Shown here piece after piece: positions 34,178 through 64,000 of a DNA stretch of 64,000 bases (its first letter is position 1; each line of letters starts with the position of its first letter). A model generated the notes under the pieces. It did no database searches and had not been told where the DNA came from. It worked only from the letters and a program-made list of their open reading frames with translations. The position numbers and the translations under genes are program-made. This DNA comes from Gemmatimonadota bacterium (GTDB lineage Bacteria > Gemmatimonadota > Gemmatimonadetes > Longimicrobiales > Gaopeijiaceae). The DNA lies in NCBI GenBank assembly GCA_030428885.1, contig JAUIEJ010000001.1, positions 62,001 to 126,000 on the forward strand. The letters are read 5' to 3'.

Positions 34178-34242
34178 GGGGGGGCGCGGAGAGCTCGTGG
34201 GGCGGGAGCCGATGGGCGGTGCGTCCGCATGGAGCCCATGCC

Positions 34243-34330: not shown

Positions 34331-34352
34331 TCCAGGGCTGCGGCGGGGGGAG

Positions 34353-36430: not shown

Positions 36431-36528
36431 AGTCGGTGTGACGCTGGTATCAGAGCACCTCCGGAACTGAGGATCCGCGGGGCGCGTGGGGATCTCATGA
36501 CACGGGATCGGCCTCACGGACTCCCAGG

Positions 36529-40239: not shown

Positions 40240-40265
40240 TGTCCATCCTCCTTTCCCAACAGGGG

Positions 40266-42338
40266 CTACCTGTCGCCCCCCGGACGTCGGACGATCGCCG
40301 GGGGCTGATCGGTCGGGACTGCTCGAACACTCTGCGTGGGGGCGGGGAGAACCTCATCGACCACGACCGGTCCGGGCTGCACCAGGTCGCCCGACGGATG
40401 GCTCAAGGGACTGCCGTTCCCGGAGAAGATGCGCTCCCGGAATCCCTCGTAGACGCGCCAACCCATGTCGTCGAGGGCCCCGACCGTGATGCCGGAGATC
40501 GGTGCCATGAACAACCCACCGGGTCCGTAGTTGCCCGAGATCATGACTTCATAGGGCAACATCCCCTCGCGCCAATGAGCGCACGCCGTCCCGTTGAGTT
40601 GACGGGACGAGCTATCCACCGGAGGCCACCCCGATCCACCGTACTCCTCTTCATATTCTCTACGCGCGTTGCTCGCACGAAAGAACATGTTCCTGCCACA
40701 ACGGTCGTTTGCCAACTCGATGAACTTGTCCCACCTCGTACTGGAACCGATCCCCATGATGTGCCCGATTTCATGGGTGATCAGGTCGAGAAAGGCGAAC
40801 GCCCCGTAGTCGAGTGCGACGGGATCGATCACGATGTGGCCTACCTGGGGGAGGTTGTTGTCCTTGCCCCACGACCGTCCCCTCACCAGGCATCTCGAGG
40901 CCCTGCCGACGATCGGATCGGGGAGATTGCCCACTCGGAAGCTGATGGCCAGGTAGTAGCTGTCTGGATAGGTCTCCGAAAACCCGTTGCAGTCCCGGAT
41001 TCGCTGGTCCCCCAGGAGGCGGAAGCCGGTCGGGGCCTCGGAGATGATTTCGGCCCAGCGCTCCAGCGCCTCGAAGATGAGCAGCTGCTGTTCCCAGGAG
41101 AACGCATCGTCGATCAAGGGCGTGATCTGGAAGTACTGCGGTCCTGGCTTCCGGACGTACAGATTCACGATCCTCGTCGAGTCGGCGCCGTCAGCACCGA
41201 AGTATCGTACATCGAAACTGAAGCGCCCGGAGAGCTGGGCGGCGCCCGAGATCTTACGACCGGTGGCGTCCAGGTAGACTCCCGGCGGCAGCCGGTTGAA
41301 CATCTCGTCGCGGGTGTCCGGTCTCGCCATTCCCGTCGGCGTGTACGAACTGGTGACTGCTTGGTTGAACGGAAGCTCGTACTCGAAATAGGCCCCCCGG
41401 TCGAACTCCAGGGCCGGGAGGTCCCCCAACCTGGGCCTCATGGGCTCCACGTCGATGCGGCCCGGAGCGGTACCGGCCTGGAGTCCGTCGGTGAATCCAA
41501 TCTCGAATTGCCATTGCCCGGGTTCGGTCGGTGTTCCCTCCACACCATCCTCGCCAAGGGATAGTCCGGGAGGGAGCGCTCCACTCGCCAACGAATACTC
41601 GACGGTATTCCCGCCACCGGCCTTCGTGAACGCCCGTGAGAACGGAAGACCCTCTTCACCGGGAGGGGGCAGGAAGTCGTCCACCACGAGAAGCGGCGGA
41701 GTGCGCAACACGCGCACCGAACTGCTGGTGGCTCCGAGAACGTTGCCCGCCCTGACCAGGATATGGTACTCGCGACCCGGCACGGCGGGGTCGATGCGAT
41801 ACGAACTCGCGCTCGGAGGCAAGCTGTCGATGCGCGTCCAGACGCCATCGGACCCGATCAGGATTTCGAAGAACTGCTGCACCGAGTCCGCCACGGCCCA
41901 GCGCATCTCCACTGCGAACGGCGGTCCCCCGTGAACCGCTTCGAGAGACTCGATGGTGGGCGGGCCCGGCGCGCGCTCCGGGATCACATCGACGAGCGCC
42001 GTGTCGGCCAGCGCGCGGATCGAAACGACGATGCGCCCCTGGCCGTAGGTCAGTGCGTCGACCACGCCGTTGCCGTCGACGCGCGCAATCTCGGGGTCCA
42101 GGGCCCGCCAGTTGGGGCGTTCGTTCACGGGGCCTCCCGTGCCGTCGAGGATCTCCGCGGAGAGCGTGACGGACTGACCTCGAGACACGGTGAAGCCCGA
42201 GGGCGATACGACGATGGACACGGGGTCGGTGAGGTCCGGCTCGACGCCTCCATCACGTTTGTCGCCGCCGCAGGCGGACAGGGCGATCAGGCACGCGATG
42301 ACGGACGCCGGTTGGAATGACGTTCGAAGGGGGATCAT
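40266..42338 (-). CDS. Leishmanolysin-like zinc metalloprotease lipoprotein
   Basis: A 690-residue lipoprotein (lipobox IALSACG). The N-terminal part has a bacterial Ig-like (BIG2) domain (SIVVSPSGFTVSRGQSVTLS), a fibronectin-like segment and a putative-Ig-like segment. The catalytic domain has the HExxH motif HEIGHIMGIGSS (His522, Glu523, His526), and downstream ACAHWREGMLPYEVM supplies the distant third His and the Met of the Met-turn, as in the leishmanolysin (M8) family. It ends with GALDDMGWRVYEG, also typical. Its ATG 42338 overlaps the stop of the Gly-rich lipoprotein gene (ATGA), with AGGGGG upstream. It acts on the cell surface or in the periplasm. Confidence 0.85.
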   Translation of the reverse strand: MIPLRTSFQPASVIACLIALSACGGDKRDGGVEPDLTDPVSIVVSPSGFTVSRGQSVTLSAEILDGTGGPVNERPNWRALDPEIARVDGNGVVDALTYGQGRIVVSIRALADTALVDVIPERAPGPPTIESLEAVHGGPPFAVEMRWAVADSVQQFFEILIGSDGVWTRIDSLPPSASSYRIDPAVPGREYHILVRAGNVLGATSSSVRVLRTPPLLVVDDFLPPPGEEGLPFSRAFTKAGGGNTVEYSLASGALPPGLSLGEDGVEGTPTEPGQWQFEIGFTDGLQAGTAPGRIDVEPMRPRLGDLPALEFDRGAYFEYELPFNQAVTSSYTPTGMARPDTRDEMFNRLPPGVYLDATGRKISGAAQLSGRFSFDVRYFGADGADSTRIVNLYVRKPGPQYFQITPLIDDAFSWEQQLLIFEALERWAEIISEAPTGFRLLGDQRIRDCNGFSETYPDSYYLAISFRVGNLPDPIVGRASRCLVRGRSWGKDNNLPQVGHIVIDPVALDYGAFAFLDLITHEIGHIMGIGSSTRWDKFIELANDRCGRNMFFRASNARREYEEEYGGSGWPPVDSSSRQLNGTACAHWREGMLPYEVMISGNYGPGGLFMAPISGITVGALDDMGWRVYEGFRERIFSGNGSPLSHPSGDLVQPGPVVVDEVLPAPTQSVRAVPTDQPPAIVRRPGGDR

Positions 42339-43195
42339 CCGACCCCCTCGCCCCATTCGATCATGACGTACCCGTCACCGCCGCGGCCCCCAGTGCCTCC
42401 ATCGCTCTGGTTGGCATTGGCGCCACCCCCTCCGCCGCCGGCGCACTGTCCCCCGGGACGGCCGTTGCGATCCGCTTCGCCGTTGCCACCGTTGCCTCCG
42501 GCCTCGCGTCCACCACCGCCCCCGCCACCACCACCGGAGTCTTCGTCGGGCGAGCCGCCGGCGCCGCCGGGAGCGGTGGCCGAGGCCTGTCCCTGGTCGC
42601 CGCTTTCGCTCCCTCCGAAGCTGCCGTTCCCGCCTGCTGTGCGACCGTCACCGCCCGCACCCCCGGCACCGCCGGTCTGGAAGGCGCCACCGGCGCCGGC
42701 GCTCCCGCCCGGAAACAGAGCCCCGGCGACGGAGGACTGGCCCCCGGGTTCTCCCGAGCTGCCCGGTTCCCTGCTTCCGCCGGAAGCGCTACCCCCGTCG
42801 CCGCCGAGCCCGCCGGCACCCACGACGATCTCGATCGAGCCTGCGGCGACCGGGACCATCCGGGTAGTCAGCTCGGCGCCACCCCCACCGCCCCCCGCCC
42901 CGGAGTTGGCATCCGACGTGTCGGCCCCCCCACCTCCACCGCCACCCCCGCCGCAGGCTGTGACGCGGAGCATCGTGATGCCGTTCGGTACGGTGGCAAA
43001 GAACGCCCCGGCCTCTTCGAAGGCCGCCGACTGGTAGGGAATGACGGTCGTCGGGTCTGAATCGTCGCCGCAGCCCACCATGATGAGTGCCGTGAGCAGG
43101 ACGGCCAGAGCGACCAGGCGCCTGGAGGGATCGATCCGGGTAGGGGCTCCGGCGAGTGCGCGGGTGGCGCGCGGTCGTTTGGGTGCAGCCCTCAT
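42335..43195 (-). CDS. Glycine-rich surface lipoprotein
   Basis: A 286-residue protein with a long basic N-terminus, hydrophobic segment and lipobox (LIMVGCGDD). After a short unit AAFEEAGAFFATVPNGITML comes about 200 residues of Gly/Ala/Ser-rich sequence ending RGGDGYVMIEWGEG. The architecture, a strand-rich start, Gly-rich middle and 'GG.G..G.v.i.w' end, matches the Gly-rich domain known from phage tail-fibre tips and adhesins. It probably forms a surface adhesion domain. It is translationally coupled to the downstream metalloprotease, which could process it. Confidence 0.65.
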   Translation of the reverse strand: MRAAPKRPRATRALAGAPTRIDPSRRLVALAVLLTALIMVGCGDDSDPTTVIPYQSAAFEEAGAFFATVPNGITMLRVTACGGGGGGGGGADTSDANSGAGGGGGGAELTTRMVPVAAGSIEIVVGAGGLGGDGGSASGGSREPGSSGEPGGQSSVAGALFPGGSAGAGGAFQTGGAGGAGGDGRTAGGNGSFGGSESGDQGQASATAPGGAGGSPDEDSGGGGGGGGGREAGGNGGNGEADRNGRPGGQCAGGGGGGANANQSDGGTGGRGGDGYVMIEWGEGVG

Positions 43196-44555: not shown

Positions 44556-45365
44556 GTGGTTCCCGAGCCCTCCCCAGATGGCGACCTCTCGCCTCCGGAC
44601 GACGATCCGGAGGCCGTGTTCCTCGCGCACCTCGACACCGTCGATCGGATCGTGGGGGCGCTGGCGGCGCGCTATGCCATGTCGCCCGACGAGCACGACG
44701 ATTTCAAGGGGTGGGTTCGCATGAAGCTCGTCGAAGACGGCTACGCGGTGATCCGGAAGCACGAGGGGCGCTCCTCCATGAGCACCTACCTCTCCGTGGT
44801 CATCGCCAACCTGCTCCGCGACCGCCGCATCCAGAAGTGGGGTAAGTGGCGGCCCTCTGCGGCGGCGCGGCGGGCCGGGCCCCTGGGCGTCCAGCTCGAG
44901 CGACTCCTGAGGCGCGACGGCGTCGCCTTCGATGTGGCCGTCCGCATTCTCGGCAGTCGCAACGGAGAGGAGCTCGACCAGCGCGCCCTGGCCCGCCTCG
45001 CCGCGACGTTCCCGGAGCGGACGCGGCCGCGCGTCGATGCCAACCCCGACGCCGTGCTGCGGGCGGTGGGCACGCAGAGCGCCGAGGAACGGGTTGTGGC
45101 CGACGAGCAGTCCCAGCATGAATCCGCCTTGCTGGCGGCCCTGGACGGATCCCTCGACACCCTCGACGACGAGGACCGGGTGATCCTCAAGCTCCGGTTC
45201 TGGGAGGGGCTCACCGTGGCCGACATCAGCCGCGCCCTCCACCTCGAGCAGCGACCCCTCTACCGGCGGGTCAATGGGCTCCTCGCCCGACTCCGCACCA
45301 CCCTCGAGGGGGCCGGGGTCACGGGGTCCGACGTGGGGGAGATGCTCGGAGAGGAGGCGCGATGA
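44556..45365 (+). CDS. Sigma-70 family RNA polymerase sigma factor
   Basis: A 269-residue sigma factor larger than a standard ECF protein. Region 2-like sequence is DEHDDFKGWVRMKLVEDGYA and STYLSVVIANLLRDRRIQKWG. Region 4 near the C-terminus is LDDEDRVILKLRFWEGLTVA, with ISRALHLEQRPLYRRVNGLL as the helix-turn-helix. An inserted region between them (about residues 100-180) is unusual. The start is GTG 44556. The stop overlaps the next ATG (ATGA), whose product is a single-pass membrane protein, and then the CHAT protease gene. This looks like an envelope-signalled regulon whose output includes the protease. Confidence 0.75.
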   Translation: MVPEPSPDGDLSPPDDDPEAVFLAHLDTVDRIVGALAARYAMSPDEHDDFKGWVRMKLVEDGYAVIRKHEGRSSMSTYLSVVIANLLRDRRIQKWGKWRPSAAARRAGPLGVQLERLLRRDGVAFDVAVRILGSRNGEELDQRALARLAATFPERTRPRVDANPDAVLRAVGTQSAEERVVADEQSQHESALLAALDGSLDTLDDEDRVILKLRFWEGLTVADISRALHLEQRPLYRRVNGLLARLRTTLEGAGVTGSDVGEMLGEEAR

Positions 45366-46273
45366 GACTCGATGCCGAGACCCTGGCCGCCCTCATGGAG
45401 GGCCGTCTGTCGGACGACGAACGGGCCCGTGCCCTGGCGATCCTGAGGGACTCCGATGCCGACCTGGAGGTGCTCGGAGACGCCGCCGCCGTCCTGGAGG
45501 CCCTCGAGGGGGCCGTGCCCGCACGCGAGGGCGAGCCGAAGCCCGGAACCCCGAGCCGGAGCACGGCTCCCGGCCGGTCGTGGACCCGCTGGCTGCCTCT
45601 GGCGGCCGTCCTGGCCGGGCTGTCGGTGATTCCGTTTCTCGGAGGCCCCGACGGCCCGGACCTCGCCGACCTTCGTCGGGCTCTCGGGGCGGTCGGTCCC
45701 CTGGCGTCACCCCTGGACCTTCCTCCGGCCGCAGGGGGCGACGCCGTGCGGAGCGGAGGGGCCGATCCCCTTCTCGACTCGCTGTCGGCCTCGGCCCGCT
45801 CGTTCAGGAGGGGGGCCGCGTTCGCCCGACTTTCGGTCGTCGCTCCCGACGCGCGGCGGTCGAGCGCCGACGCCGCGACCCTCGGCACCCTGCTGGCGTC
45901 CAGCGCCGGCAGCGCGGCCCGCCCCGCCGTGGATGCGTGGTACGGGGACGAGGTCGAGGACGAGGCGTCCTGGACCACCGCGGCCGAAGCGGTGGCGACC
46001 GTGGAGGGAGTCCCGGCCGCATTCCGTATGGGACTCCTCATCGAGTCCGCGTCGCTGCTCCTGGCCCAGGGATCTCCATCCGGCGCCGCCGACCTTCTGC
46101 GGACGGATCTGGAGCCTGCCTTCGCGTCGCTCGACGCCTCGGTGCGCGCAAACCTCGGCGACGCCTTCGCCCGGCTCGGCGATGCCCTGGATGGCGGCGA
46201 CCTTCCGGCGGCTCTGGACGAATTCGCCCGACGGATGGCGACACTGCGGGACGGCGGCGCCCCGGGCCCGTGA
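45362..46273 (+). CDS. Single-pass membrane protein, probable anti-sigma factor
   Basis: A 303-residue protein. The N-terminus (LDAETLAALMEGRLSDDERA) resembles the zinc-finger-like anti-sigma domain start but lacks the Cys/His ligands. One hydrophobic helix (about residues 77-95) is followed by a long Ala-rich periplasmic part with TPR-like helices. The ATGA overlap with the sigma gene upstream and the GTGA overlap with the CHAT gene downstream support an anti-sigma or signal-relay role. Confidence 0.55.
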   Translation: MRLDAETLAALMEGRLSDDERARALAILRDSDADLEVLGDAAAVLEALEGAVPAREGEPKPGTPSRSTAPGRSWTRWLPLAAVLAGLSVIPFLGGPDGPDLADLRRALGAVGPLASPLDLPPAAGGDAVRSGGADPLLDSLSASARSFRRGAAFARLSVVAPDARRSSADAATLGTLLASSAGSAARPAVDAWYGDEVEDEASWTTAAEAVATVEGVPAAFRMGLLIESASLLLAQGSPSGAADLLRTDLEPAFASLDASVRANLGDAFARLGDALDGGDLPAALDEFARRMATLRDGGAPGP

Positions 46274-49272
46274 ACAGGGCCGGGCGCATGATGAGGTGGC
46301 TCCCGGTGGGCCTTCTGCTGATGGTGACGACCGGTTGTGAGCCGTCCGATCCCCTCGTCCGCCTCGCCGCCGAGCTGGCCGACGTGCGAGCGGTGGAGCC
46401 CCGCCGCAGCGATCTGCGGCGCCATCGACCGTGCCCCGTCGTACTGGAGTCCTCGACGGGACGATGTGCCGATGGCGATGCCGTCGAGCAGGCGACCCAT
46501 TGGATCGCCCTCGTGGACGAGGTCGAGACCCGCACCGGCGCCACGGGCCCCGTCGAAGGGCTCCGGGCCCTGAGCGCCTTCGACGTTCTCGCCGGAGCCT
46601 CCGACCCCGTCGCCCTCGATCGTGCCGTCGCACGGCTGCACGTCTCGGCCGATCTTCGTCCCGACGATCCCGACGTCCGGAACGATCTCGCCGTGGCGCT
46701 CCTCCTCCGTGCCGAGGCCATGGATCGCACCTGGGACGCCACGGAGGCCCTCGATCACCTGCAACGGGTGCTAGACGCCGACTCGACCCACGCCCCGGCG
46801 CGGTTCAATCGGGCCCTCGCCCTGGATCGGCTGGGCCTGGTGAACATGGCCTTCGAGGAATGGGCCCGGGTGGGCGAAGTCGACCCGGAAAGGGCCTGGC
46901 GGGCCGAAGCACGGGACCGGGGCGCCCGTCTCGCCCGGCGCGCGGATTCGGCCGCGGTCCACGTTCCCAGGGTCGACAGCGTGCTGCGGATCGTGGCTCG
47001 CGCCCGGGCCGACGGGTCCCTATGGGAGGCGGCGCGGCGGGAAGCCGCTCTACTGGCGGATCGGGGAGAAGACGGCGTGCAGACGCTGATCGACGCCCTC
47101 ACCGGCCCCGATCCCGACGGTCGGGGCCTTCCCGCGGGCCTGGAGTCGTACGTGGAAGCGCTGGACCTGTGGAGGGCGGGGGCCCTCGAGGAGTCCCAGA
47201 GGGTCTATCGCCGCGTGCTCGAGTTCACGGCCGCCCTCGGGCCGGAGGCACGTTACCTGCGCTGGCGAGCGACCGTCGGGGCGGCCCGAAAATCCATCTA
47301 CGACAACGAATACCTCGAGGCCGAGGCGGCCCTGTCCGGAGTCCTCCTCGACTCCCGCCGTTTCGCGGCCGCGGAAACGCGCGGGCATGCTCTCTGGGCC
47401 CTCGCGTTGTCCGTCGGCAATCGAGGGGACATGTCGGCCGCTTCGTCGCACCTCGCCGCCGCGGAGTCTCTCTTCACAGCGCTCGGTCAGCGGCGGGAGA
47501 CGGCGGCGCTCCGCTCCATGAAGGCGGAACTGCTGGGGGCCGAGGGGGCCACGAGCGCGGCGCTGGACCGGTTCGTGGCGACCCTGCCCCTCTACGGGAG
47601 GGACGGCGGGAATCTGCACCAGAACCTGCTCAGCACGGCGGGACGTCTCGTGGCGGCCCGGCATCCTCGCGCGGCGGTGTGGTTCCATCGGGAGGGACTC
47701 CATCTCTCCGGGGCCCGGGAGAACCCGCAGTTCCGGATCGAGGCGCTCATCCGGCTCGCGCAGTCCGAGGCCCAGGCTGGAGATAGCGCGCTGGCGGGCG
47801 CCTACCTCAGGGAAGCGCGCCGGGGCTTTCCGACGATTCGGGACTCCGCTATGGCCCTTCGGGTCCGAGCGGAATACGACGAGCTCGTGGGCATGCACGT
47901 GCCCGGGTTGGCTGCCCCCGCGCGGGACTCGCTCCTCACCGCGGCGGTGGAGTACTTCGCCGACGGCGGCAACCGGTTCAAGGTGCCGGCCCTGCTGGAG
48001 CGACGCGGCACCCACCGCATCGAGAGCGGGCGGGTCGCCGAGGGCCGAGCCGACCTGCTCGGAGCCGTGGCGACGGTGGAGGAGCAGCTCGAGGGTATGG
48101 AAAACCCCGGTCAGCGGGCCGTCCTGATCCGGGCGCGATCCGCGGCCGTCGAGGCGCTCGTGGCCTCGCACCTGGCGCTGGGCGACACGGTGGCCGCGCT
48201 GATGGCCCTGGACGGGCCGCGGGCGAGGGCGTCGCAGCGGACGGGGCGTACGGGGGGCGCCGAATGGCCCGCCGACCTGTCGGCCTCCGTGCCCGCTGGG
48301 TCGGCGATCGTTGCGTACGGTCTGGTCGCAGACGACGCCTATGCGTGGGTGCTGGGGCCCGACCGCGTCGCACTGCGTCGCCTGCCCGTGGGGACCACCG
48401 CACTTGCCGCCTCCGTCGATCGCCTCCGATTCGCCCTCGGGACGGGCGCATCGGTCGACGGCGTAGCCTCCCTCACCGCGGGATTGTGGGCGGATCTCGT
48501 GGCGCCGGTGGAGCCGCTCCTCGACGGCGTGGAGTCCGTGACGGTGGTGCTCGACGGTCCGCTCCATGGGTTGCCGATCTCGGTGCTCGGCGACCGACCG
48601 GGGGACTTCCTGCGGCGGTACCGCCTGGTCCATGCACCCTCGGTGGCGTTCGCCCTGGAGGGTGCCCGCTACGGGGCCCGGGCCTCGCCCGGACCGACCC
48701 TGTCGGTGGCCGCCTCGGAGTGGGACCCGGAACGGTATCCCGGGCTTCCGGCCCTGGCGTTCGCCGAAGACGAGGCTTCTGAAGTGGCCGCCGTGTACGA
48801 TGCCGAGCCGGTAGTGCGGCCCGAGGCAGACGGTCTCGCCCGGAATCTGGAAGAGGCCGGAATCTTCCACTTCGCCGGGCACGGCCTCTACCGATCCGAT
48901 CGTCAGGATCTCTCGACGCTGGTGCTCCCGGGCCCGGGGGGAGGCCTGACGGCGGCGCGCATCGCCGGGCTGGACCTGAGCGGACTCCGGCTCGCGGTCC
49001 TGGCGGCCTGCAGCACCCAGGAGGGGTCGAGGGGCGCCGAGGGTGGTCTGTCCGGCCTCACGTGGTCGTTTCTGGACGCCGGCGCACGCGGTGTGGTCGG
49101 GAGCTTGTGGGCGATCCCGGACCAGGCCACCAGCCGCCTCATGATCGACCTCCACCGCCGCGTGGCCGCGGGGGAGGAGGGCGCCGACGCCCTCCGCGCC
49201 GCGCAGTTGGAGGCGGCGGGCGCCGGAGACGCCGGCTGGACCTGGGCCGCCTTCCGGTACGAAGGCCGTTAG
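46270..49272 (+). CDS. TPR-CHAT domain protease lipoprotein
   Basis: A 1000-residue lipoprotein (LLLMVTTGC). Residues about 60-650 carry repeated TPR-like helix pairs. The C-terminal 300 residues are a CHAT domain of the caspase-like CD clan: His871 (FHFAGHGLYRSD) and Cys914 (LAACSTQEG) form the dyad, with GLSGLTWSFLDAGARGVVG after it. CHAT proteases cleave partner proteins when activated through TPR contacts. The GTG start at 46270 overlaps the preceding stop (GTGA); ATG 46288 is the alternative. Anchored outside the inner membrane, it is the third gene of the sigma/anti-sigma-like operon. The substrate is unknown. Confidence 0.85.
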   Translation: MNRAGRMMRWLPVGLLLMVTTGCEPSDPLVRLAAELADVRAVEPRRSDLRRHRPCPVVLESSTGRCADGDAVEQATHWIALVDEVETRTGATGPVEGLRALSAFDVLAGASDPVALDRAVARLHVSADLRPDDPDVRNDLAVALLLRAEAMDRTWDATEALDHLQRVLDADSTHAPARFNRALALDRLGLVNMAFEEWARVGEVDPERAWRAEARDRGARLARRADSAAVHVPRVDSVLRIVARARADGSLWEAARREAALLADRGEDGVQTLIDALTGPDPDGRGLPAGLESYVEALDLWRAGALEESQRVYRRVLEFTAALGPEARYLRWRATVGAARKSIYDNEYLEAEAALSGVLLDSRRFAAAETRGHALWALALSVGNRGDMSAASSHLAAAESLFTALGQRRETAALRSMKAELLGAEGATSAALDRFVATLPLYGRDGGNLHQNLLSTAGRLVAARHPRAAVWFHREGLHLSGARENPQFRIEALIRLAQSEAQAGDSALAGAYLREARRGFPTIRDSAMALRVRAEYDELVGMHVPGLAAPARDSLLTAAVEYFADGGNRFKVPALLERRGTHRIESGRVAEGRADLLGAVATVEEQLEGMENPGQRAVLIRARSAAVEALVASHLALGDTVAALMALDGPRARASQRTGRTGGAEWPADLSASVPAGSAIVAYGLVADDAYAWVLGPDRVALRRLPVGTTALAASVDRLRFALGTGASVDGVASLTAGLWADLVAPVEPLLDGVESVTVVLDGPLHGLPISVLGDRPGDFLRRYRLVHAPSVAFALEGARYGARASPGPTLSVAASEWDPERYPGLPALAFAEDEASEVAAVYDAEPVVRPEADGLARNLEEAGIFHFAGHGLYRSDRQDLSTLVLPGPGGGLTAARIAGLDLSGLRLAVLAACSTQEGSRGAEGGLSGLTWSFLDAGARGVVGSLWAIPDQATSRLMIDLHRRVAAGEEGADALRAAQLEAAGAGDAGWTWAAFRYEGR

Positions 49273-49833: not shown

Positions 49834-52457
49834 ATGCTCGGAACTCGCCTCCTCACCCGCGCTCTGTGCGCGGCCGCGGCTCTCATCGGACTCGGGGCCG
49901 GCCTCGAGGCCCAGCTCCTCCACGATCCCCGATTCGACAACGGCACCGGCGAACGCTGGGCCGTGGTCATCGGGATCAGCGAATACGAGGATCCGGGCAT
50001 CACGGACCTCAGCTACGCCCACCGCGACGCGGAGGCGTTCGCCCAGTTCCTGCGCACGCCCTTGGCGGGCCTGGGCGGGTTCAAGGACGATCACATCCGG
50101 CTGTTGACGAATCAGGATGCGTCGGCGAACCAGATCCGCACGGCTCTCTTCGACTTCCTCGCCCGGCCGGCCCCCGACGACATCGTCTACTTCTTCTTCG
50201 CCGGACACGGAATGCCCCAGCAAGGGCGGCCCAACGGCACCCAGTATCTCGTGCCCTCCGATGGTGACCACACCAACCTGGCGGGTTCGGCGGTGCGTAT
50301 GGCCGACGTGGAGAGCGCCGTGTTCAACACCCAGGCCCAGGTCGTGTTGTTCATCGATGCGTGCCATGCAGGGGCCGTGGCTACGCCCGGTGGCACCCGC
50401 GGCGACGATCTGAACCGCATCAACTCAGAGTTCATCGAGCGGATCGCCGCGGCCCGCCCCTCGGGGGTCTCCATGGTCGTGGCGGCCCACGAGGGGGAAT
50501 ACGCCCACGAAGGCACCGAATGGGGTGGGGGCCACGGAGTCTTCACCTACCACCTCATCCAGGCGCTGGGCGGACGCGGTGACCGTGATGAAGACGGCAT
50601 CGTCGACCTCGGTGAGGTCTACGACTACGTGCGCGCTCGGGTGCCTCAGGATACCGACAATCAGCAGACGCCGTTCGCCAACAGTCAGTTCCTCCGGCGC
50701 GAACTCCCCATGGCCATCGTGGCCGACAGCGCCACGCTCGCCGCCGCCGAAGCCGAGCGCGTGCGGGTCGGTGGTGCAGAAAGCGACTCGTCGTCTCTCG
50801 ATGTGTTCGTGGCTACCGACCTCACCCAGCAGGAGTGGTTCGCACCCGACTCCATCGTGGCCTTCGTCGGAGTCCCCGACACCCTGGAGGTACTTCTGGG
50901 CTCACCCACGGGTCGTCGCGCTCCGCCGACCCGCCTCCGGTGGACCTCGTCCAACACCTCCGTAGCGACCGTCGACGGGTTCGGTACGGTCCATCCGGAG
51001 TCCCCGGGAGTGGCGGAGATCACGGCCTCGGTGTTCACGAAGGACGCAAGGATCCTCGTCCGGGTGCTCCCCACCCCCACCTCCATCGTATTCTCGCCGC
51101 CGGAAGGCGCGGTGGACGTCTCCCAGTTCGACGAGCTGCGCTTCGCCGCCACGGTGGAGTTGCCCAGCGGCGAGACCGTGGCTGGAGTCCTGCCCACCAT
51201 CACCATTGCCGACACGTCGGTGGTGGCGTCCAACGGGAACGGACGCTTCACCGCCCGGCGGGAAGGCCGCGCGCGAGTGGAGGCCACGCTCGGGGCCCGC
51301 TCCGTGACATGGGACATCACGGTTCGCCCCCCCCGGTTGAGCATCGATCGCGGCCCGTACGGGGCCATGCGGTTCACCGACACCATTCCTCTGCTGGCCA
51401 GTTTCGTCCGAGACGACGGCTCCCGCATCACCGACGCGTCGGGAGTGACCTGGCAAAGCAGCGACACCACGGTACTCCGCGCGACGGCCTCGGGCCTCGT
51501 GGCCGTCGACGTCGGGCGGGCGGTTATTCGAGCGTCGGTCTCCAGTTCCAGGGACTCGGTCGAGATCTTCGTGCTCGGCGACATCATCGTCACGTCGGAA
51601 GCCGATGGTGGCCACCGGATCAGTACGGTGGACCTCGGCACCAAGCGCACCGAACACATCGCCGATGGGGATTTCGGCGACCGGGCGCCTCAGCTCTCGC
51701 CCGACGGCCGGCGCGTGGCGTTCGTGTCCACGCGCAACTCCGAGCGGCCCCGAATCCACGTCATGGATGCCGACGGGGGCCGTATCCAGCGGCTCACCGA
51801 AGAGCGGGGAGGCGTGTTCGGACTGCCGGGCGGGTCTACCAGGAACACAACCCCGTGTGGAGCGCCGACGGCGAGCGGGTCTTCTTCGTGGCGAACTACT
51901 CGGGCAACTACGACGTGTACTCGGTGGCGGCCGACGGCTCCGATCTCGTGAAGGTGACGAGTACCGGGAGCCAGGAACGATCGGTGTCGGTCTCGGCAGA
52001 AGGCGGTCGCATCGCGTTCGAGCGTGTGGACGGCGCCAACTCCTCCGACGTTTGGGCGGCGCTTCCCGACGGGGCCGAAGAGGTGGTGCTCACGGGCGGG
52101 GAGTGGAGTGAGTCCCGGCCGGTTCTCATGGCCGAGGGTCGCCTGCTCATCGTCGAAACGCCTCTCTCGTATCGGGCGGGCGAGGTCCTGGCCCTCTACG
52201 ACGGCGTAGCCGGGACCAAGGTCCGGACGCTGGTCCAGGCCCGGAAGGACCACCGCATCATCTTCGCCGCGTCGCCCGCCGGCGACTACGTGGCGTATTC
52301 CCAGGTGCCCCGCCTCGGGGGCGGCGACCCCCTAGTCACCATCGTCGACATGAATGGCATCGTCGTCGACAGCTTCAGCCTCCCTGACTCCGATCACATC
52401 GTCGATCTCTCCTGGGGGGCGGTCGCTCTCCGGTCCGAAGAAGGAGAAGGACAATGA
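49834..52457 (+). CDS. Secreted caspase-family protease with Ig-like and PD40 domains, frameshifted
   Basis: Two frames together read as an approximately 875-residue protein. A signal peptide (ending GLEAQ) precedes a C14 caspase domain: WAVVIGISEYEDPGITDLSYA, His125 (FFFAGHGMP) and Cys177 (VLFIDACHAG). Residues about 330-580 are BIG2-like Ig domains (RWTSSNTSVATVDGFGTVHP), then TolB-like PD40 blades (APQLSPDGRRVAFVSTRN). The frame breaks in GCCGGGCGGG (51825-51834); one missing base there would explain it, and the new frame continues HNPVWSADGERVFFV to 52457. The downstream barrel gene overlaps by ATGA. ATG 49834 is used; GTG 49789 is an alternative. The lesion may be real or a sequencing indel. 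Confidence 0.75.
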
Positions 52458-53362
52458 TCCGCCGACACACGCCCCTGCTCGTCGCTGCTCTGCTCTGGGT
52501 CGCGGCTCACCCTGTGTCCGCCCAGTGGTCGGTGGACATTCCTGGAGTCCCCCGAGCCTCACTCGTGCGGCAGGGGGCTCATCAGGGCCGCTTCGAGCTC
52601 GAAGGCTCGTGGCTCAAGCCGGGGGCCGAGGCGGGGGATTCGGCGGTCATCGCGGGTCGCATGGGGGTGGGATGGAGCTGGCGCATCGCCTCGGCCGTCG
52701 AGTTCGGCTTCGACTTCACGGTGGCGAATGCCCAGCGCATCTCCGGCATCGTGGCCCCGGATCTTCCCGACGGCGGGAACGAGCTGCGTCTCACGGGCGG
52801 CTACGGGCTCCGGTTCGGGCTCAAGTTCAGACCCATCTCGTACGTGGATCTGGACGGCAACGGGGTGGAGGTCGCCCTGGGGGTAGGGTATCAGCCGGAG
52901 CTGGAGCCGGTGGTGCGGTGGGAGACCCGGGGCGACTCGTCGGTGGTGGCGGGCCTCGTAGGTGGATCCGACCTGCCCGAGGGTCCGAAGATCCACTCGT
53001 CCACGCTGTTCATGGCCGCGGTGAGCTATCGTCAGCCGCGAATCATGGGCGACTTGGCACTGGTCTCGGAGAGCGCGACCGAGTCGGCGGATCCGTTCCT
53101 TACGGTGCATTCGGGTGTGGGACTCCGAGCCGGTATTCGGTATCGCCTCACCCATGGCTTCGCGGTGGGCGCGTCGTACTGGGGCTCCGGTGCGCCCCCC
53201 TGGCGAGACCGTCCGACCATCGCCCTGGCGACCGAGGACACCTCGCAGTTCGGGCTCCTGCTCTCGCTCGGTGGAACGCCCGAGAAGTCCACTGATCTGA
53301 TGGTGTCGTCTCCTACCGGATCGTTCGGGAAGTCGGTGACCGTCTACGTAGCGGTTCGGTGA
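52454..53362 (+). CDS. Outer-membrane beta-barrel protein
   Basis: A 302-residue protein with a signal peptide ending PVSAQ. The mature part has alternating amphipathic strands (IASAVEFGFDFTVA, ELRLTGGYGLRFGLKFR, AGIRYRLTHGFAVGASYW) and ends in a strand, TVYVAVR. No specific family was recognised. Its ATG overlaps the caspase stop, and its stop overlaps the kinase GTG, placing it inside a three-gene coupled operon. It could export or anchor the caspase-propeller protein, but that is inference. Confidence 0.65.
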   Translation: MIRRHTPLLVAALLWVAAHPVSAQWSVDIPGVPRASLVRQGAHQGRFELEGSWLKPGAEAGDSAVIAGRMGVGWSWRIASAVEFGFDFTVANAQRISGIVAPDLPDGGNELRLTGGYGLRFGLKFRPISYVDLDGNGVEVALGVGYQPELEPVVRWETRGDSSVVAGLVGGSDLPEGPKIHSSTLFMAAVSYRQPRIMGDLALVSESATESADPFLTVHSGVGLRAGIRYRLTHGFAVGASYWGSGAPPWRDRPTIALATEDTSQFGLLLSLGGTPEKSTDLMVSSPTGSFGKSVTVYVAVR

Positions 53363-54942
53363 CCCAACCCTCGCTGGAAGAGCGCCTCCGGTCGGCGACT
53401 CGCGGCCGGTTCGAGGTCCTGGGCATCCTGGGCCGGGGAGGCATGGCCAGTGTCTTCCGGGCCCGCGATCTCACGCTCGGTCGCGAGGTGGCGCTCAAGG
53501 TCCTGTCCGACGACGTGCTCTCGGACGATTCGGCAGTGGAGCGTTTCCTCGAGGAGGCGCGGGCCGTGGCTGCGTTGGACCACCCGAGCATCGCGAAGGT
53601 CTTCAGCGTCGAGCAGCGCAACGGTCTCTACTACCTGGTACTGCAGTTGGTGCACGGGCAGAGCCTGTCGGAGATCCTGAAGCGGGGACGGCTCCTGGAC
53701 GTGGGCATGGTCCAGATGTGGTTCGGCCAGATCGCCGATGCAGTGGACTATTCTCATCGATGCGGGATCGTCCACCGGGACATCAAGCCCGGAAACGTGC
53801 TGATCCGCGACACGGGCGAGGCGGTCCTCACGGACTTCGGAATTGCCAAGGCCGCCGCGGGCCCGAGTCTCACGCGCACCGGATTCCTGGTTGGGACACC
53901 GGACTACATGAGCCCCGAGCAGTGCAGCGCCGACCCCACGAAGGTGCGGCCGGCGTCGGACCAGTATTCACTCGGCGTCGTGCTCTACGAGGCGCTCAGC
54001 GGAACCAATCCCTTTTCTGGACACGGCAATCACATGGTGGCCGTGTCGAAGCAGATGGAGACCGTGCCGCCGGCCCTTGGCGAGATTCGGCCGGAAGTCC
54101 CCGCGGAGCTGTCCGACGCGGTGCAGCGTATGCTCTCCAAGGCACCAAGAGACCGGTTCGATTCGGTTTCCGCGGCGGCTCAGGCCGCGGGGTGCGGGGC
54201 ATCCATGGGGCGTCGTCGGGTCCTCTCCACACCGTGGGAGGCTCAGGGTGCCGCCGTCGAGGGAGGGAGCGAGCCCGTTCCCGTGACCACCCAGATCACG
54301 CGGCTCGTACGCACCCGGTGGGCGTGGTTGCTCATTCCCATCGGCGGCTGGGCCCTGGTCTCGCTCCCGTCCCGGTTTTCGGGCGCCGTGAATGAGGAGG
54401 GACCGAGCGACAGCGTGGTCGCCGCGGCCCCCGAGGAGGCCGTGGACTCTCCCGTGTCGGCGCCGCCCGATGAGTCGGCCGATCCTCCAGCGCCGGGCCC
54501 CACCACTTCGCGGCCCCTGGAAGGTGTTCCCACGGGGCCGGCCCCTCGCCGCGCCCCGACGGCCCCGCCCGGGGCGTCGGGCGTGTTCGTTCTCGGGCAG
54601 GGCAACGAGCTCTTCACTGCTCTGTCGTTTGCGTCCCCGTTGGACGGCGATCATTGGTGCGCGGGCCTGGAACTCTCGGTCAACGGTGCGCCGCCGCGTG
54701 AGGTCAGCCGCACGGAACTCCGCACCATGGATGCCGCCCAGGCGCGCCTCGTGACCAGTCTGGATTCTCTCGCGGCTGCCGAGGATGGTCCGGTCGCGGC
54801 GGTCGAAGCCGTGGGCCTCGTCCGCATGTGGCAGGGCAGTTGCCCGCCCGCCGGCTCGATGCCACGACCTGCGTTCACAGTAGATCTCGCCCCTCTCTGC
54901 GCGCAACGGATGCTGAGCGGGACGTGGTTTCCGTGTCGTTGA
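53359..54942 (+). CDS. Transmembrane Ser/Thr protein kinase (PknB-type)
   Basis: A 527-residue kinase. The Gly-loop is LGRGGMASVF, the ATP lysine Lys47 (VALKVL), the catalytic loop HRDIKPGN (Asp141), the metal loop DFG (Asp159) and the activation end YMSPEQ. A transmembrane helix (about residues 314-332, WAWLLIPIGGWALVSL) separates the cytoplasmic kinase from a Pro/Ala-rich stalk and an extracytoplasmic domain with three Cys. The start GTG overlaps the barrel stop. Such kinases phosphorylate regulators in response to envelope signals; here the signal may come from the coupled caspase-propeller protein. Confidence 0.9.
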   Translation: MTQPSLEERLRSATRGRFEVLGILGRGGMASVFRARDLTLGREVALKVLSDDVLSDDSAVERFLEEARAVAALDHPSIAKVFSVEQRNGLYYLVLQLVHGQSLSEILKRGRLLDVGMVQMWFGQIADAVDYSHRCGIVHRDIKPGNVLIRDTGEAVLTDFGIAKAAAGPSLTRTGFLVGTPDYMSPEQCSADPTKVRPASDQYSLGVVLYEALSGTNPFSGHGNHMVAVSKQMETVPPALGEIRPEVPAELSDAVQRMLSKAPRDRFDSVSAAAQAAGCGASMGRRRVLSTPWEAQGAAVEGGSEPVPVTTQITRLVRTRWAWLLIPIGGWALVSLPSRFSGAVNEEGPSDSVVAAAPEEAVDSPVSAPPDESADPPAPGPTTSRPLEGVPTGPAPRRAPTAPPGASGVFVLGQGNELFTALSFASPLDGDHWCAGLELSVNGAPPREVSRTELRTMDAAQARLVTSLDSLAAAEDGPVAAVEAVGLVRMWQGSCPPAGSMPRPAFTVDLAPLCAQRMLSGTWFPCR

Positions 54943-54964: not shown

Positions 54965-55615
54965 ATGAACACAGCGCCAGGCGTGATAACGATCGGCGAC
55001 TGCGCCCTATGCGCCAGTCTGGTCTACTCGAATTCCGATGCCGCGGGAGGATGGACCTCGACGCACCTCCTATCGAGCATCACCGGATTCCAGGGTCGTA
55101 CGTTCTCCAGGGATGGCGCGTTGATCGTCGCCTTCCGTGGCACCGACTCGTACCTGGATATGCTGACCACCTGGCCTGAGCTCCTGACGAGTCGTCCGCC
55201 ACTGCTGCAGCTTGGTTCGGCGATGGACCTGGCTCGGGAAGGGTTGAAGGAGGAAGCGCGCCGCATTGTTGTGACTGGCCATTCCTTGGGCGGTGCTCTG
55301 GCGAAGATCGTTGCAACTCATCTCAACATCCCCGCGGTGCTATTCAATGCGCCCGACGTCAAGCTGTTCCTTGGCCGAGAGAGGCCTTGGATCAAGTCGA
55401 TCGCTGCGACTGGAGATCCGGTTTCCAGTTGGTTGGGAGCATCAGATACCCTCTTGGTTGCAGGCCTTACGAAGCAGGAAGTCAGAGACCGGGTGTGCCT
55501 TCCGTTGAATGTCCTTGGTCTTGAGGAGCGACACGAAATGAAGCGTATCCTCCGTGGAATCGAAGCGTATTCGGATATGCTCTTCCAAGCACCCGTGCCG
55601 CCGCGGGGGGCCTGA
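54965..55615 (+). CDS. Lipase class 3-like alpha/beta hydrolase
   Basis: A 216-residue protein. The nucleophile elbow is GHSLGG (Ser107), preceded by LIVAFRGTDSYLDM, the oxyanion strand typical of class 3 lipases. It probably hydrolyses an ester or lipid. No signal peptide. A Cys pair lies near the start (GDCALCASL). The gene follows the kinase by 22 bases, so it may be co-transcribed. AT-richer codon use than the operon suggests a separate origin. Confidence 0.7.
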   Translation: MNTAPGVITIGDCALCASLVYSNSDAAGGWTSTHLLSSITGFQGRTFSRDGALIVAFRGTDSYLDMLTTWPELLTSRPPLLQLGSAMDLAREGLKEEARRIVVTGHSLGGALAKIVATHLNIPAVLFNAPDVKLFLGRERPWIKSIAATGDPVSSWLGASDTLLVAGLTKQEVRDRVCLPLNVLGLEERHEMKRILRGIEAYSDMLFQAPVPPRGA

Positions 55616-57936: not shown

Positions 57937-58344
57937 CTATCTCAGCAACTCGAATCCCGCGATCTCGAAGTGGTGGTCGAAGGCGAAGGCCGACCGCACC
58001 CCTTCGGCCCGCATCACCTCGAAGCTGACGGCGTCCACGAGGGAGAACGGCTGGTCCTGGAAGCGCGCGAGCCATCCGCTCATCGCTTCTCCCACCAACT
58101 CCGGCCCGACGGCGATCCACGACTGGATCGGGTCGTCCAGCAGGTGCCGGAGCGCCGTCCGGGCGACGGCGGCGTCGCGTAGGTAGAGCAGGTGGGAGTA
58201 GAACTCGGAGAGCACGAGGGTGGTGCCCACGAAGGTCCCTCCCTTCGCTCGGTGCCCCGCCGCGATCTCCACGGCGCGAGCGTGGTGCTGATCGCGCGCG
58301 TGGCTCAGAGCCAGCAGGGCGCTCGTATCGACGAGGGCCCGCAC
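57937..58344 (-). CDS. vapC: PIN-domain ribonuclease toxin (VapC-type), second locus
   Basis: A 135-residue PIN toxin: MRALVDTSALLALSH (Asp6), VLSEFYSHLL (Glu) and SLVDAVSFEVM (Asp), followed by AFAFDHHFEIAGFELL at the end, the complete acidic site of VapC proteins. The ATG lies one base after the stop of the upstream antitoxin, so the pair forms a compact operon on the minus strand. It probably cleaves RNA when the antitoxin is degraded. Confidence 0.85.
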   Translation of the reverse strand: MRALVDTSALLALSHARDQHHARAVEIAAGHRAKGGTFVGTTLVLSEFYSHLLYLRDAAVARTALRHLLDDPIQSWIAVGPELVGEAMSGWLARFQDQPFSLVDAVSFEVMRAEGVRSAFAFDHHFEIAGFELLR

Positions 58345-58345
58345 G

Positions 58346-58633
58346 TCACCCCTCCTGATCCGGTGCGCTCCCGCTGCGGAACAGGTACTCGTCGTGCCGC
58401 TCCGAGAGGTCCGGGGGCGCGTCGGTGTCGTCTGCGATCCCCGTCAGGTAGTCGAGCGACGAACCGGGACCCCCCTCGGGCAGCAGTTCCTCGGCCAGCC
58501 GACGGAGACCCCGGCGAAAGAGCTCGGTGCGGGCCAGACCCGTCTCCTCGGCCAGGCGCTCCAGCAACGCGCGATCGCTCGCGTTCATGTACACCACCGC
58601 CTGCTCGCGGACGCGTTTGGGTTCTGGCGCCAT
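58346..58633 (-). CDS. vapB: Ribbon-helix-helix antitoxin (VapB-type)
   Basis: A 95-residue protein. The N-terminus (QAVVYMNASDRALLERLAEE, TGLARTELFRRGLRRL) is a ribbon-helix-helix DNA-binding domain. The C-terminal tail (LSERHDEYLFRSGS) probably binds the toxin. It lies immediately upstream of the PIN toxin gene. A candidate operator precedes it at 58646-58677. Confidence 0.75.
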   Translation of the reverse strand: MAPEPKRVREQAVVYMNASDRALLERLAEETGLARTELFRRGLRRLAEELLPEGGPGSSLDYLTGIADDTDAPPDLSERHDEYLFRSGSAPDQEG

Positions 58634-58743: not shown

Positions 58744-59136
58744 TCACCCGCCCGACGCAGCCGGCTGCTCGAACAGCTCGGCGAGCGCGATCACGAGCGC
58801 GTCTTCGGCTCCGGGTGGCTTCCAGCGGAGTCTCTCGTCTCCGCCATACCGCACCGACTCCGCTGCCCCGTCGCCCAGCGCCCACACCTCGACGGCCTCC
58901 CGCTCGGGATCGACGATCCAGTACCCGCCCACGCCGAACAGGCGATAGCGGTCGAGCTTGATGCCCCGGTCGCGGGCTTCGGAGGCGGGAGAGACGATCT
59001 CGACGACCAGGTCCGGGGCGCCCTCGACCCCCCGGTCGCTCAGGACTTGACCACCGCGCTCTCGCCGTACGAAGACGAGGTCGGGCTCGACGTAGTCCCC
59101 TTCACCGAACAGCACGTCGGTAGGGGCTGGAGACAC
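58744..59136 (-). CDS. Uma2-family (DUF820) nuclease-fold protein, N-terminally truncated
   Basis: A 130-residue reading with the Uma2 signature YVEPDLVFVRRERG, PDLVVEIVSPASEARDRGIK and YRLFGVGGYWIVDPERE, a restriction-endonuclease-like fold (PD...EI.S acid residues and K). Full Uma2 proteins are about 180 residues; the expected start (YElidGel...H...) is missing. In-frame sequence upstream still resembles it (FVEREALGEV), but no start codon is available, so the gene is truncated or shifted at its 5' end. Uma2 proteins are common orphans, often near toxin-antitoxin genes. GTG 59136 is used. Confidence 0.6.
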   Translation of the reverse strand: MSPAPTDVLFGEGDYVEPDLVFVRRERGGQVLSDRGVEGAPDLVVEIVSPASEARDRGIKLDRYRLFGVGGYWIVDPEREAVEVWALGDGAAESVRYGGDERLRWKPPGAEDALVIALAELFEQPAASGG

Positions 59137-61242: not shown

Positions 61243-62091
61243 CTACCCCACCGCCCCTGCGATCCACCCGGCCACCTTCGGATCCACCAGATACCCGGTG
61301 ATGTCGTGTGGATCGACGCCGCTGTTCTTCACCTTCGTGTGGTTTTCGATGCCCGCGATGAAGTTCGACGGCGTGAGTGCGGAGTAGAGCGCCACCACGT
61401 CCTTCTCGTCGGTGGCGTTGCGCCAGCTCTTCACGCCAGCAGGAAACACCAGTGGATGGTGGTCTTCGAGACCGATCTGGATCTCTTCCAGGCCCAGAGG
61501 GGAGCCCACGGTGACGTACAGCGGCACGTCGACCTGGTCTCCAAGCTCCGCCAGGACCGAGTACCCCACGACGCTCCCCAGGGAATGGCCCACGACCACA
61601 CAGGGGCCCTGGGTCAGGTGCGGCCGTACGATGTCGTGGACCACCTTCCGGACGTCGAGACGGTTCAGGTAGGCCGACACGTCGGCGGTGAAGCGGCCGA
61701 TCACCTCTCGCGTGACCCCGGGAATCCGTCGATCGATCACCCGGGCCAGCGCCTGCACCCACTCCCAACGCTCGGGACCCCGCTCCAGCACGTCGGTCTC
61801 GAGTGCGGTTCCGGGATCGATACCGCCGCGCTCGGCCATTCTGCGCACGATGGCCAGGGTCAGGGGATCGACCTGGCCGGCGGGATCGCCTCGCTCCAGC
61901 GTCTCCGCCCGGCTCGACATGGCCACGTCGAGGGCGTCGCCGTAGAAGGGCGCTTCCGACGTCGTCGGGTCGAACGGCTCCGCGGCCCCGGCGTGTCGGT
62001 AGCCCTGGATCAGTCCGGCGTCCCATACTGTCTTGATCTCCAGGGCGCTCTTGCCCTTCTGCGCCCGCCCGTGGATGTACACGATCCTCAT
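61243..62091 (-). CDS. Alpha/beta hydrolase coupled to a caspase gene
   Basis: A 282-residue protein starting MRIVYIHGRAQKGKSA, an alpha/beta-hydrolase first strand with HG oxyanion motif. The nucleophile elbow is CVVVGHSLGSVVGYS (Ser170); a later Asp in ATDEKDVVALYSALTPSNF and His in NHTKVKNSGVDPHD complete a plausible triad. The ATG overlaps the stop of the upstream caspase-family gene (ATGA). It has no signal peptide. The substrate is unknown. Its pairing with a caspase-fold gene mirrors the lipase/kinase/caspase unit 10 kb to the left. Confidence 0.75.
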   Translation of the reverse strand: MRIVYIHGRAQKGKSALEIKTVWDAGLIQGYRHAGAAEPFDPTTSEAPFYGDALDVAMSSRAETLERGDPAGQVDPLTLAIVRRMAERGGIDPGTALETDVLERGPERWEWVQALARVIDRRIPGVTREVIGRFTADVSAYLNRLDVRKVVHDIVRPHLTQGPCVVVGHSLGSVVGYSVLAELGDQVDVPLYVTVGSPLGLEEIQIGLEDHHPLVFPAGVKSWRNATDEKDVVALYSALTPSNFIAGIENHTKVKNSGVDPHDITGYLVDPKVAGWIAGAVG

Positions 62092-64000
62092 GTAGTCAGC
62101 TCCTTCTCTCGAATCTGATCTCGCTCCTCGCCCTCCAACCGCTCCCCCAGCACGCGTCCGGCTTCGTCGGGGAAGGTGGTGAACATCGCCGTCGTCGGAG
62201 CCGACGGCAGATCGACCAACAGCGGAGGTGGCGCCTCTGCACGCAGAATCCGGGACCAGCCGCGACGCAGGATGGGGAAGTCGGGGGCCACCGGCACGTA
62301 CTCCCGCACGTCGTCGAGCCGACGGCTCGACAGCATCACGATGTCGTACGGCACGGCCTGCTCTCGCGCCACGAAGTAGCCGATCATGTCGTCCACGCGC
62401 TCGACTTCGTCGGCCTCGGCGTAGGCGTACGCAGCGTACACGCCGAGCATGGGGTTGCGGTGCTTGAACTCACGCATGCGGCCAGCCACCTCGACGAAGT
62501 CGGCGCCGAGCAGGCTCGTGCGACCCGCGCGGAACGCGGCCTCGGCGAGCACCAGCAGCCGTCGCTCTTCGTCCGGGTCTTCGGATTCGTCCCACGGGCC
62601 GCCCGGAGCGGGTCGGTACCGCAGGCTCTCGACTCCGGATTCCGAGAGCACGGCCTCACCGAGGAACCCGGGGAAGTGGGCGAACCCTCCCCAGAGCCCG
62701 TCTTCGAACTGCACCATCACCGATCCCGGTCGGTAGCCCCGCACGAAGGCGTAGCCGGGCTCCTGCCCCCAGCCCTCGTTCGGGCCCAATACGGCCTGGA
62801 TGAAGGCACCGGTGATCGAGATGCCCGTCTCCGTTTCGAAGCTGTGGCGGGTCGGGGCCCGGGCGAACTCGGCGAGGCGGCCCTCCACTTCGTCGTCGGC
62901 CTCGATGGGATGAGCCAGGGTCGGATCCGCTCCGGCCTCCATCACCCGCAGCTCGGTCCGTACGCGACCCGTGAGGACGTCTTCGTGCACCACGGTATAG
63001 ACGCCGTCTTCGCTCGGACGGTCGGCGCGTCGCCCACTCTGGTCGAGCACGTATCGCTCGACGAGTTGTGCTTCGGGTCCGGTGGAGTCGCCGGCGAGTC
63101 CCATACTCGGACGCAGCAGGACTTCGTTGTCGGCGTTCCGTCCGGTGAGCAACGCCAGGGGCTCGGGCGCGAGGGGCTCTTGCACGTACCCCGGCTTGGT
63201 GGCCCGCACCCCGTAGATGCCGGCCGGAAGCGTCTCGGTCAGTTCCGGGCCGTCTCCGGACGCCCGTTCGATCGGGTTGGCCACGTTCGACATCTCCAAC
63301 ACCGCGATCGAACTCCCTGCGGCCGGCGATCCGTCCGGGTGCTTCGCGCGGATCACGAGCGTGCCCTGCTGCGGGGGCCCCAACTCGATCAGGGCATGCT
63401 CCTGACCCGAGGTGGGCCTAATGTCGGGGGTCTGCCTCCGGCCGGTGAGACGGGAGGATTCCTCGGGGACGATCCGGTCCAGGTAGGGTTTCAGGCGCCC
63501 AGCGTAGATCACCGTGGCGCCGGTGGACGGATGGAGCGAGCGAACCTCGCCGACATCGCCGTTCAGGGCGTCCTGCAGCGCCTTCGTGAAGATCCCGTGG
63601 GCGTCGATGATCTGCTGGTCCGTGCCCCGCTCGATCACCTCCATGGCGGATCGACCGCTGATCGTGCTGTTGAAGATGTCGACGACAGCGTTGGTGTTCC
63701 CCGAGGCTCGAGAGGGGAAGACGGCCGGCGAGCCCTTCGCTACGGAGAAGAACTGTGAGGGGACCGAGGTGCGGCAGGCGTCGGCGAAGAACGCCACGTG
63801 CCGCAGGCGCCGGTTGGCCCGCGCCCGGGTGGTCGACGCCGAAGCGTCGATGGGGTCTTCGTACCCTCCGGAGAGGAGCCAGTAGTCCTCGTCGTGTCCG
63901 GCCGCCACCCCATGCCCTGCGAAGAACACGAAGACCTGCTCGATGCCCTTGGTATCGGCGATCTCCTTCCCAGCCGCCAGCAAGGCCTCGCTTGTGACCG
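62088..64000 (-). CDS. Caspase-family protease, N-terminus beyond the right edge
   Basis: At least 637 residues in the window; the frame continues open to the edge, so the TTG at 63983 is not the start. The C14 caspase core shows VFVFFAGHG (His) and VAFFADACRTS (Cys). Downstream regions include PEGA/carboxypeptidase-regulatory-like beta domains (GTLVIRAKHPDGSPAAGSS, LPAGIYGVRATKPGYVQE) and a long helical C-terminal part (LLVLAEAAFRAGRTSLLGAD). It probably acts as a processing or self-destruct-type protease. Its stop overlaps the alpha/beta hydrolase start, so the two form a coupled pair. It is the third CD-clan protease in 18 kb. Confidence 0.75.
   Translation of the reverse strand, partial: VTSEALLAAGKEIADTKGIEQVFVFFAGHGVAAGHDEDYWLLSGGYEDPIDASASTTRARANRRLRHVAFFADACRTSVPSQFFSVAKGSPAVFPSRASGNTNAVVDIFNSTISGRSAMEVIERGTDQQIIDAHGIFTKALQDALNGDVGEVRSLHPSTGATVIYAGRLKPYLDRIVPEESSRLTGRRQTPDIRPTSGQEHALIELGPPQQGTLVIRAKHPDGSPAAGSSIAVLEMSNVANPIERASGDGPELTETLPAGIYGVRATKPGYVQEPLAPEPLALLTGRNADNEVLLRPSMGLAGDSTGPEAQLVERYVLDQSGRRADRPSEDGVYTVVHEDVLTGRVRTELRVMEAGADPTLAHPIEADDEVEGRLAEFARAPTRHSFETETGISITGAFIQAVLGPNEGWGQEPGYAFVRGYRPGSVMVQFEDGLWGGFAHFPGFLGEAVLSESGVESLRYRPAPGGPWDESEDPDEERRLLVLAEAAFRAGRTSLLGADFVEVAGRMREFKHRNPMLGVYAAYAYAEADEVERVDDMIGYFVAREQAVPYDIVMLSSRRLDDVREYVPVAPDFPILRRGWSRILRAEAPPPLLVDLPSAPTTAMFTTFPDEAGRVLGERLEGEERDQIREKELTT

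Follow-up and report, generated by a model that had tools for sequence, protein, structure and literature searches.

Most discussion of bacterial caspases has concerned proteases that act in the cytoplasm, in cell death or defence. Among the prokaryotic metacaspases and orthocaspases, members with N-terminal export signals have been described (PMC3501461, PMC6426788). The autokinase activity of the kinase VgrS is lowered when its sensor is cut by Prc, a periplasmic protease (PMC6237974). The locus described here lies in a stretch of 64,000 nucleotides (the window), in which genes for a secreted caspase homologue, a putative outer-membrane barrel and a PknB-type Ser/Thr kinase follow one another on the plus strand. 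The parts belong to known families, and their combination was not found in the literature covered by a limited search. The features of the locus are as follows.

49834..51951, plus strand: secreted caspase-homologue gene, first frame (signal peptide, C14, Ig-like Big_2 domain, first propeller blades)
49789, plus strand: alternative GTG start of the caspase gene
49954..50724, plus strand: caspase (C14) domain (PF00656, 7.8e-23)
50206-50208, plus strand: His125 codon
50362-50364, plus strand: Cys177 codon
50581-50616, plus strand: EF-hand-like loop DRDEDGIVDLGE, with D250 and E261 invariant
51800..51850, plus strand: zone of a -1 frameshift (one base) between two coding frames
51852..52457, plus strand: rest of the PD40/TolB-type propeller, second frame (PD40, 8.6e-6; TolB propeller model, 1.1e-9)
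52454..53362, plus strand: exported 302-aa protein, probable outer-membrane beta-barrel (weak)
53359..54942, plus strand: PknB-type Ser/Thr kinase gene (PF00069, 3.6e-48)
54319-54366, plus strand: short transmembrane (TM) segment of the kinase (hydrophobic segment, aa 321-336)
54965..55615, plus strand: Lipase_3-like alpha/beta-hydrolase gene (PF01764, 1.1e-7)

The open-reading-frame list bore out the gene positions of the initial annotation, and the alignment of homologues confirmed its numbering of His125 and Cys177. The His-Cys dyad was intact in 138 of 140 caspase homologues, and an Asp was located two residues ahead of the Cys in 139 of the 140. Over aa 40-300, the predicted structure of the caspase domain was good in most blocks; the best structural match of the modelled domain was plant metacaspase-4 (Z 20.5, 215 residues, rmsd 2.7). 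Both marks of the metacaspases/orthocaspases (C14), the caspase fold and the His-Cys dyad, were thus present. D250 and E261, spaced as in an EF-hand loop, were invariant across 24 relatives, which suggests calcium control of the caspase. Cleavage after Arg or Lys would be the expected specificity, for which the Asp ahead of the Cys is an indirect indication. In the PDB sequence search, a repetitive toxin aligned with the caspase; this was a chance repeat match and was discarded.

The gene had been described as encoding a caspase with a signal peptide and Ig and PD40 domains. The domains were recovered with Pfam (C14, 7.8e-23; Big_2, 8e-10; PD40 in both frames), but no single open frame holds them all. 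Translation from 49834 meets a stop at 51951, within the propeller, a break that had been overlooked, and the remaining blades and the ATGA overlap sit in another frame, which is open over 51636..52457. GC by codon position changed frame between about 51.80 and 51.85 kb; GC3 was 0.84 on both sides of the shift, and the two halves were equally coding-like. The shift zone was G-rich. A programmed -1 frameshift was rejected because no slippery heptamer (X_XXY_YYZ) was found in this zone. The frameshift may have originated either from a sequencing or assembly error or from a real mutation, and it is presumably an artefact or a recent event. The caspase product may be truncated as a consequence. 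In the deposited sequence, the barrel ATG comes about 500 nt after the caspase stop; therefore, the ATGA coupling would hold only if the frameshift is bridged, and as deposited the caspase and barrel genes are without translational coupling. Hence, of the overlaps said to join the three genes, the GTGA at 53359 (barrel/kinase) was retained, the ATGA at 52454 was retained between the propeller frame and the barrel gene only, and the coupling to the caspase frame was lost.

The middle gene product is a protein of 302 aa with a signal peptide. Nine amphipathic strands were counted, compared with 4.4 +/- 1.8 in shuffled sequences, and 18 of 1000 shuffles were as high (p about 0.018). The match to the Pfam family OMP_b-brl was below the cut-off (E=0.02), and the AlphaFold model, built from the single sequence without relatives, was uninformative (pLDDT 35). 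No homologues were found in 57 near relatives or in the 393 other genomes of the class (E<=0.001). Solved structures were rejected as relatives, the matches being weak, implausible and to unrelated enzymes. The beta-barrel that the initial annotation placed here agreed with the signal peptide and the strand pattern, and the family match stayed below the cut-off; the gene probably, though on weak evidence, encodes an outer-membrane beta-barrel.

The annotation of the third gene as a PknB-type kinase with an ectodomain held (Pkinase, 3.6e-48). The VALK, HRD and DFG motifs were all intact, and the catalytic domain was followed by a short TM segment (16 hydrophobic residues, aa 321-336), a Pro-rich linker and, at the C-terminus, an ectodomain containing four cysteines. 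The kinase domain, TM segment and extracytoplasmic domain of PknB-type receptor kinases were all recognised, with a topology predicted from the sequence. The PknB_PASTA model of NCBIfam matched in part, over the kinase domain only (8.5e-84; 282.6 bits against a cut-off of 450 bits), and no PASTA domain was found in the kinase with the Pfam and NCBIfam models; an assignment to the PASTA-domain kinases (Stk1/PknB equivalog) was rejected on these two counts. Matches of the kinase in the defence library reflected the shared kinase domain only. Roughly 28 Ser/Thr kinase matches were present in the genome of the window. A Lipase_3-like gene, unmentioned in the initial annotation, begins 22 nt past the kinase gene and is a possible fourth member of the operon.

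Conservation was evaluated in the class (394 genomes, 393 others) and in the family (121 genomes, 120 others). Caspase-domain homologues were present in 87 of the 394 class genomes, with identities to the query of 48% or less. The gene order was judged from the caspase homologues across the 121-genome family, with the neighbourhoods read for part of them. The caspase-barrel-kinase order proposed for comparison across genomes was found complete in no other searched genome: the barrel was found in 0 of 393 class genomes, and the kinase ectodomain, which belongs to no recognised family, in 0 of 120 family genomes. A conserved three-gene module was therefore rejected.

Secreted caspases were found beside membrane kinases at two further loci. 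The closest homologue of the window's caspase (46-48% identical) belongs to another genus of the family (L121), where the caspase gene overlaps by 4 nt a gene for a PknB-type TM kinase, which is followed by a gene for an exported Big_2/He_PIG protein and then by the contig end. In the window itself, a gene for an exported Big_2/He_PIG protein of similar make-up lies at 39097-42356 on the minus strand, and after 26 nt it is followed by a gene for an LpxR-family outer-membrane protein. At the other locus (L243), the kinase comes first, a TM kinase fragment being followed by the secreted caspase. The L121 kinase was closer to another kinase of the window's genome (45%) than to the operon kinase (33%), and the operon kinase was better matched by a different kinase of G171; by these comparisons the operon kinase and the L121 kinase are not orthologues. 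Moreover, in the caspase tree (75 rows) the three kinase-linked caspases were placed separately and not as sisters. A single inherited caspase-kinase module was unsupported because the kinase matches were non-reciprocal, with better matches elsewhere, and the caspases were not sisters.

In the survey, a secreted caspase was a caspase with an N-terminal hydrophobic segment (n=80). An operonic kinase was located beside 3 of these 80, or 2 of 79 once the window is left out, and beside 0 of 479 background genes, a comparison with a small background, simple gene calls, a simple signal-peptide test and often short contigs. Binomial estimates for 3 of 80 ranged from 0.006 to 0.12 under the assumed kinase densities. 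The enrichment was marginal and, because of the small background, simple calls and short contigs, was taken as suggestive only.

The usual partners of secreted caspases in the window's family were different genes. Most close caspase homologues there sit after a gene for a CsgG-domain protein, and the two genes often overlap by 4 nt; about 15 same-strand loci of this kind were found, nearly all in one well supported clade (including L042-L048 and L123-L130). In other families of the class (L190, L191, L192, L194, L156), a gene for a cytoplasmic kinase lies upstream of a cytoplasmic caspase and a CHAT gene downstream, and nSTAND/WD40 genes lie downstream of the caspase at one locus at least (L194). 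These clusters resemble published conflict systems (PMC7159879). The window operon matches neither the CsgG pairs nor the kinase-caspase-CHAT pattern. A second conserved caspase arrangement was observed in another family (L138, L140, L141, L143, L147, L148), where downstream of the caspase gene come a gene for an exported protein (about 270-330 aa) and another for a small lipoprotein-like product, in most cases with 4-nt overlaps. A caspase adjoining an alpha/beta-hydrolase was not seen as a general rule when the neighbour genes were searched with a simple GxSxGG motif test.

The DNA upstream of the caspase gene carries a separate unit at 44556-49272 on the plus strand, in which a sigma-70-family gene is joined by an ATGA overlap to a second gene (45362-46273), followed by a gene for a TPR-CHAT protein. 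The product of the second gene has one hydrophobic segment and is anti-sigma-like by its position; no Pfam match was found for it, and no BLAST homologue in the 120 other genomes of the family. The TPR-CHAT protein, with a lipoprotein-like N-terminus and FAGHG and AACST motifs, is apparently a second clan CD protease adjoining the operon, and an extracytoplasmic one. This unit ends at 49272, about 500 nt upstream of the caspase, and has a higher GC (71-72% vs 66-68%). A tie of the operon to it was rejected on these grounds, and the suggested link of the kinase to the neighbouring sigma and anti-sigma genes was left unsupported.

Given these results, we tentatively favour a lineage-specific envelope operon, in which caspase, barrel and receptor kinase act as a protease-receptor signalling set. 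The intact caspase dyad, the kinase motifs, the signal peptides of the caspase and the barrel, the overlaps and the L121 and L243 pairs are consistent with such an operon. The exported caspase would be located in the periplasm or at the surface, where the Ig and propeller domains, and perhaps the barrel, would keep the protease in place. The probable outer-membrane barrel would be produced together with the caspase, and the PknB-type receptor kinase would span the inner membrane. Ca2+ may switch the caspase on through the EF-hand-like p10 loop, and the active caspase would cut after Arg or Lys. Its target may be the kinase, trimmed in the linker or the ectodomain, or else a barrel-bound ligand. 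Such trimming would alter cytoplasmic Ser/Thr phosphorylation, so that the kinase would report envelope proteolysis. The locations of the mature proteins, the protease specificity, the substrate and the signalling direction are those that we infer. Of the envelope signalling module originally suggested, the exported caspase and the ectodomain-bearing membrane kinase agree with the sequence; conservation of the order was rejected, and the sigma link is unsupported. A tie between the caspase and a receptor-like kinase, in a lineage-specific variant, is plausible, with a mechanism perhaps of the kind outlined above. It is rather unlikely that the pairing of a secreted caspase with a membrane Ser/Thr kinase is a recurrent type of envelope signalling, assembled independently each time, with the receptor kinase reading proteolysis outside the inner membrane and the window operon as one lineage-specific version.

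A chance or loose neighbourhood is almost as likely as the protease-receptor pair. The transcription unit would then bring together, with no joint function, an orphan envelope protein, a secreted caspase of accessory type and one of about 28 kinases. This would agree with the occurrence of the full set in one genome only, the number of kinase matches in that genome, the non-orthologous kinases and non-sister caspases of the other pairs, and the marginal enrichment statistics. However, start and stop codons overlap both in the window operon and in L121, and no operonic kinase was found at the 479 background genes of the same DNA set. A decaying gene set is unlikely by comparison: the caspase would be truly frameshifted, its product would end in the propeller, and the operon would be in the course of being lost, with only the barrel and the kinase functional. 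The frameshift without a slippery site, the lack of the set in relatives and an atypical codon-position GC would be explained in this way, but codon-position GC was normal up to the shift in both frames, with the same GC3 on its two sides, no second lesion was present, the overlap with the barrel gene was intact, and dropping a single G from a G-rich run is an error typical of sequencing too.

The least probable of these explanations, and quite an improbable one, is a defence or conflict island, with the operon as an envelope-located relative of the caspase conflict systems, a sensor leading to proteolysis and cell damage, and the lipase-like gene as a second effector. Defence-type genes do occur in the window. 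The partly low-GC segment at 27500-38046 encodes a HATPase, a HEPN-RES protein and a type IV restriction helicase (PADLOC mREase_IV, 4e-254), and a fragment at 37303-38043 matches the middle of the same helicase family; by its sequence this segment is a defence-type island carrying a truncated helicase copy. Just downstream of the operon, at 57937-58633 and 58744-59136 on the minus strand, lie genes for a PIN-domain toxin, which has a small partner gene upstream in a toxin-antitoxin-like arrangement, and for a Uma2 nuclease. At 61243-64000, also on the minus strand (L053:3244-6830), the end of a second caspase-domain gene (C14, 1.4e-7) overlaps an alpha/beta-hydrolase-like gene by 4 nt; counting G000:C2:145752, three caspase genes lie in 35 kb of one contig. 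The type IV helicase, HEPN-RES and PIN genes and this caspase-hydrolase coupling, a pairing known from conflict systems (PMC7159879), point to an island, as does the occurrence of cytoplasmic kinase-caspase-CHAT clusters in the class. The window caspase is nevertheless exported, unlike the conflict-system caspases. Its score with the EACC1-caspase model was 97 bits against a 140-bit cut-off, and the interval from the CHAT gene to the caspase, where an upstream EACC1 partner would lie, holds no called plus-strand gene; membership in the EACC1-caspase systems was rejected for these reasons. Furthermore, the operon contains no STAND, vWA or MoxR gene, and the hydrolase and defence genes lie outside the transcription unit described.

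If the envelope protease-receptor pair is real, exported caspases would be a new input for bacterial Ser/Thr kinases, and the logic of a protease acting on a receptor would extend beyond the histidine kinase case (Prc-VgrS) in which it has been documented so far. The CsgG-domain proteins, as the common conserved partner, make an envelope role of secreted caspases in this family testable.

Among the described systems, the prokaryotic metacaspases and orthocaspases (PMC3501461, PMC6426788) share with the window caspase the caspase fold, the His-Cys dyad and the Asp two residues before the Cys, whereas the literature searched gave no example among them of a C-terminal Big_2 domain with a PD40 propeller or of an operon that includes a TM kinase. 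The EACC1-caspase and other caspase conflict systems (PMC7159879) have in common with the window the caspase core, membrane association, and a kinase and an alpha/beta-hydrolase as frequent neighbours; the window differs in its exported caspase and in having no EACC1, STAND, vWA or MoxR partner. The PknB/PASTA-type receptor kinases resemble the window kinase in their active-type Hanks domain, TM segment and predicted extracytoplasmic C-terminus, but the window kinase has no PASTA domain, and its ectodomain is without a recognised family or relatives in the family genomes. In Prc-VgrS (PMC6237974), as in the proposed model, a protease outside the cytoplasm controls a membrane kinase through cleavage of its sensor; by analogy this would hold for the window pair, where the cleavage is a proposal and the protease and kinase types are unrelated to those of Prc-VgrS. 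The CsgG-domain/secreted-caspase pairs of the same family have a CsgG-domain protein as the partner in place of the barrel and kinase, and they share with the window operon a related exported caspase and a short overlap with the gene of an envelope protein.
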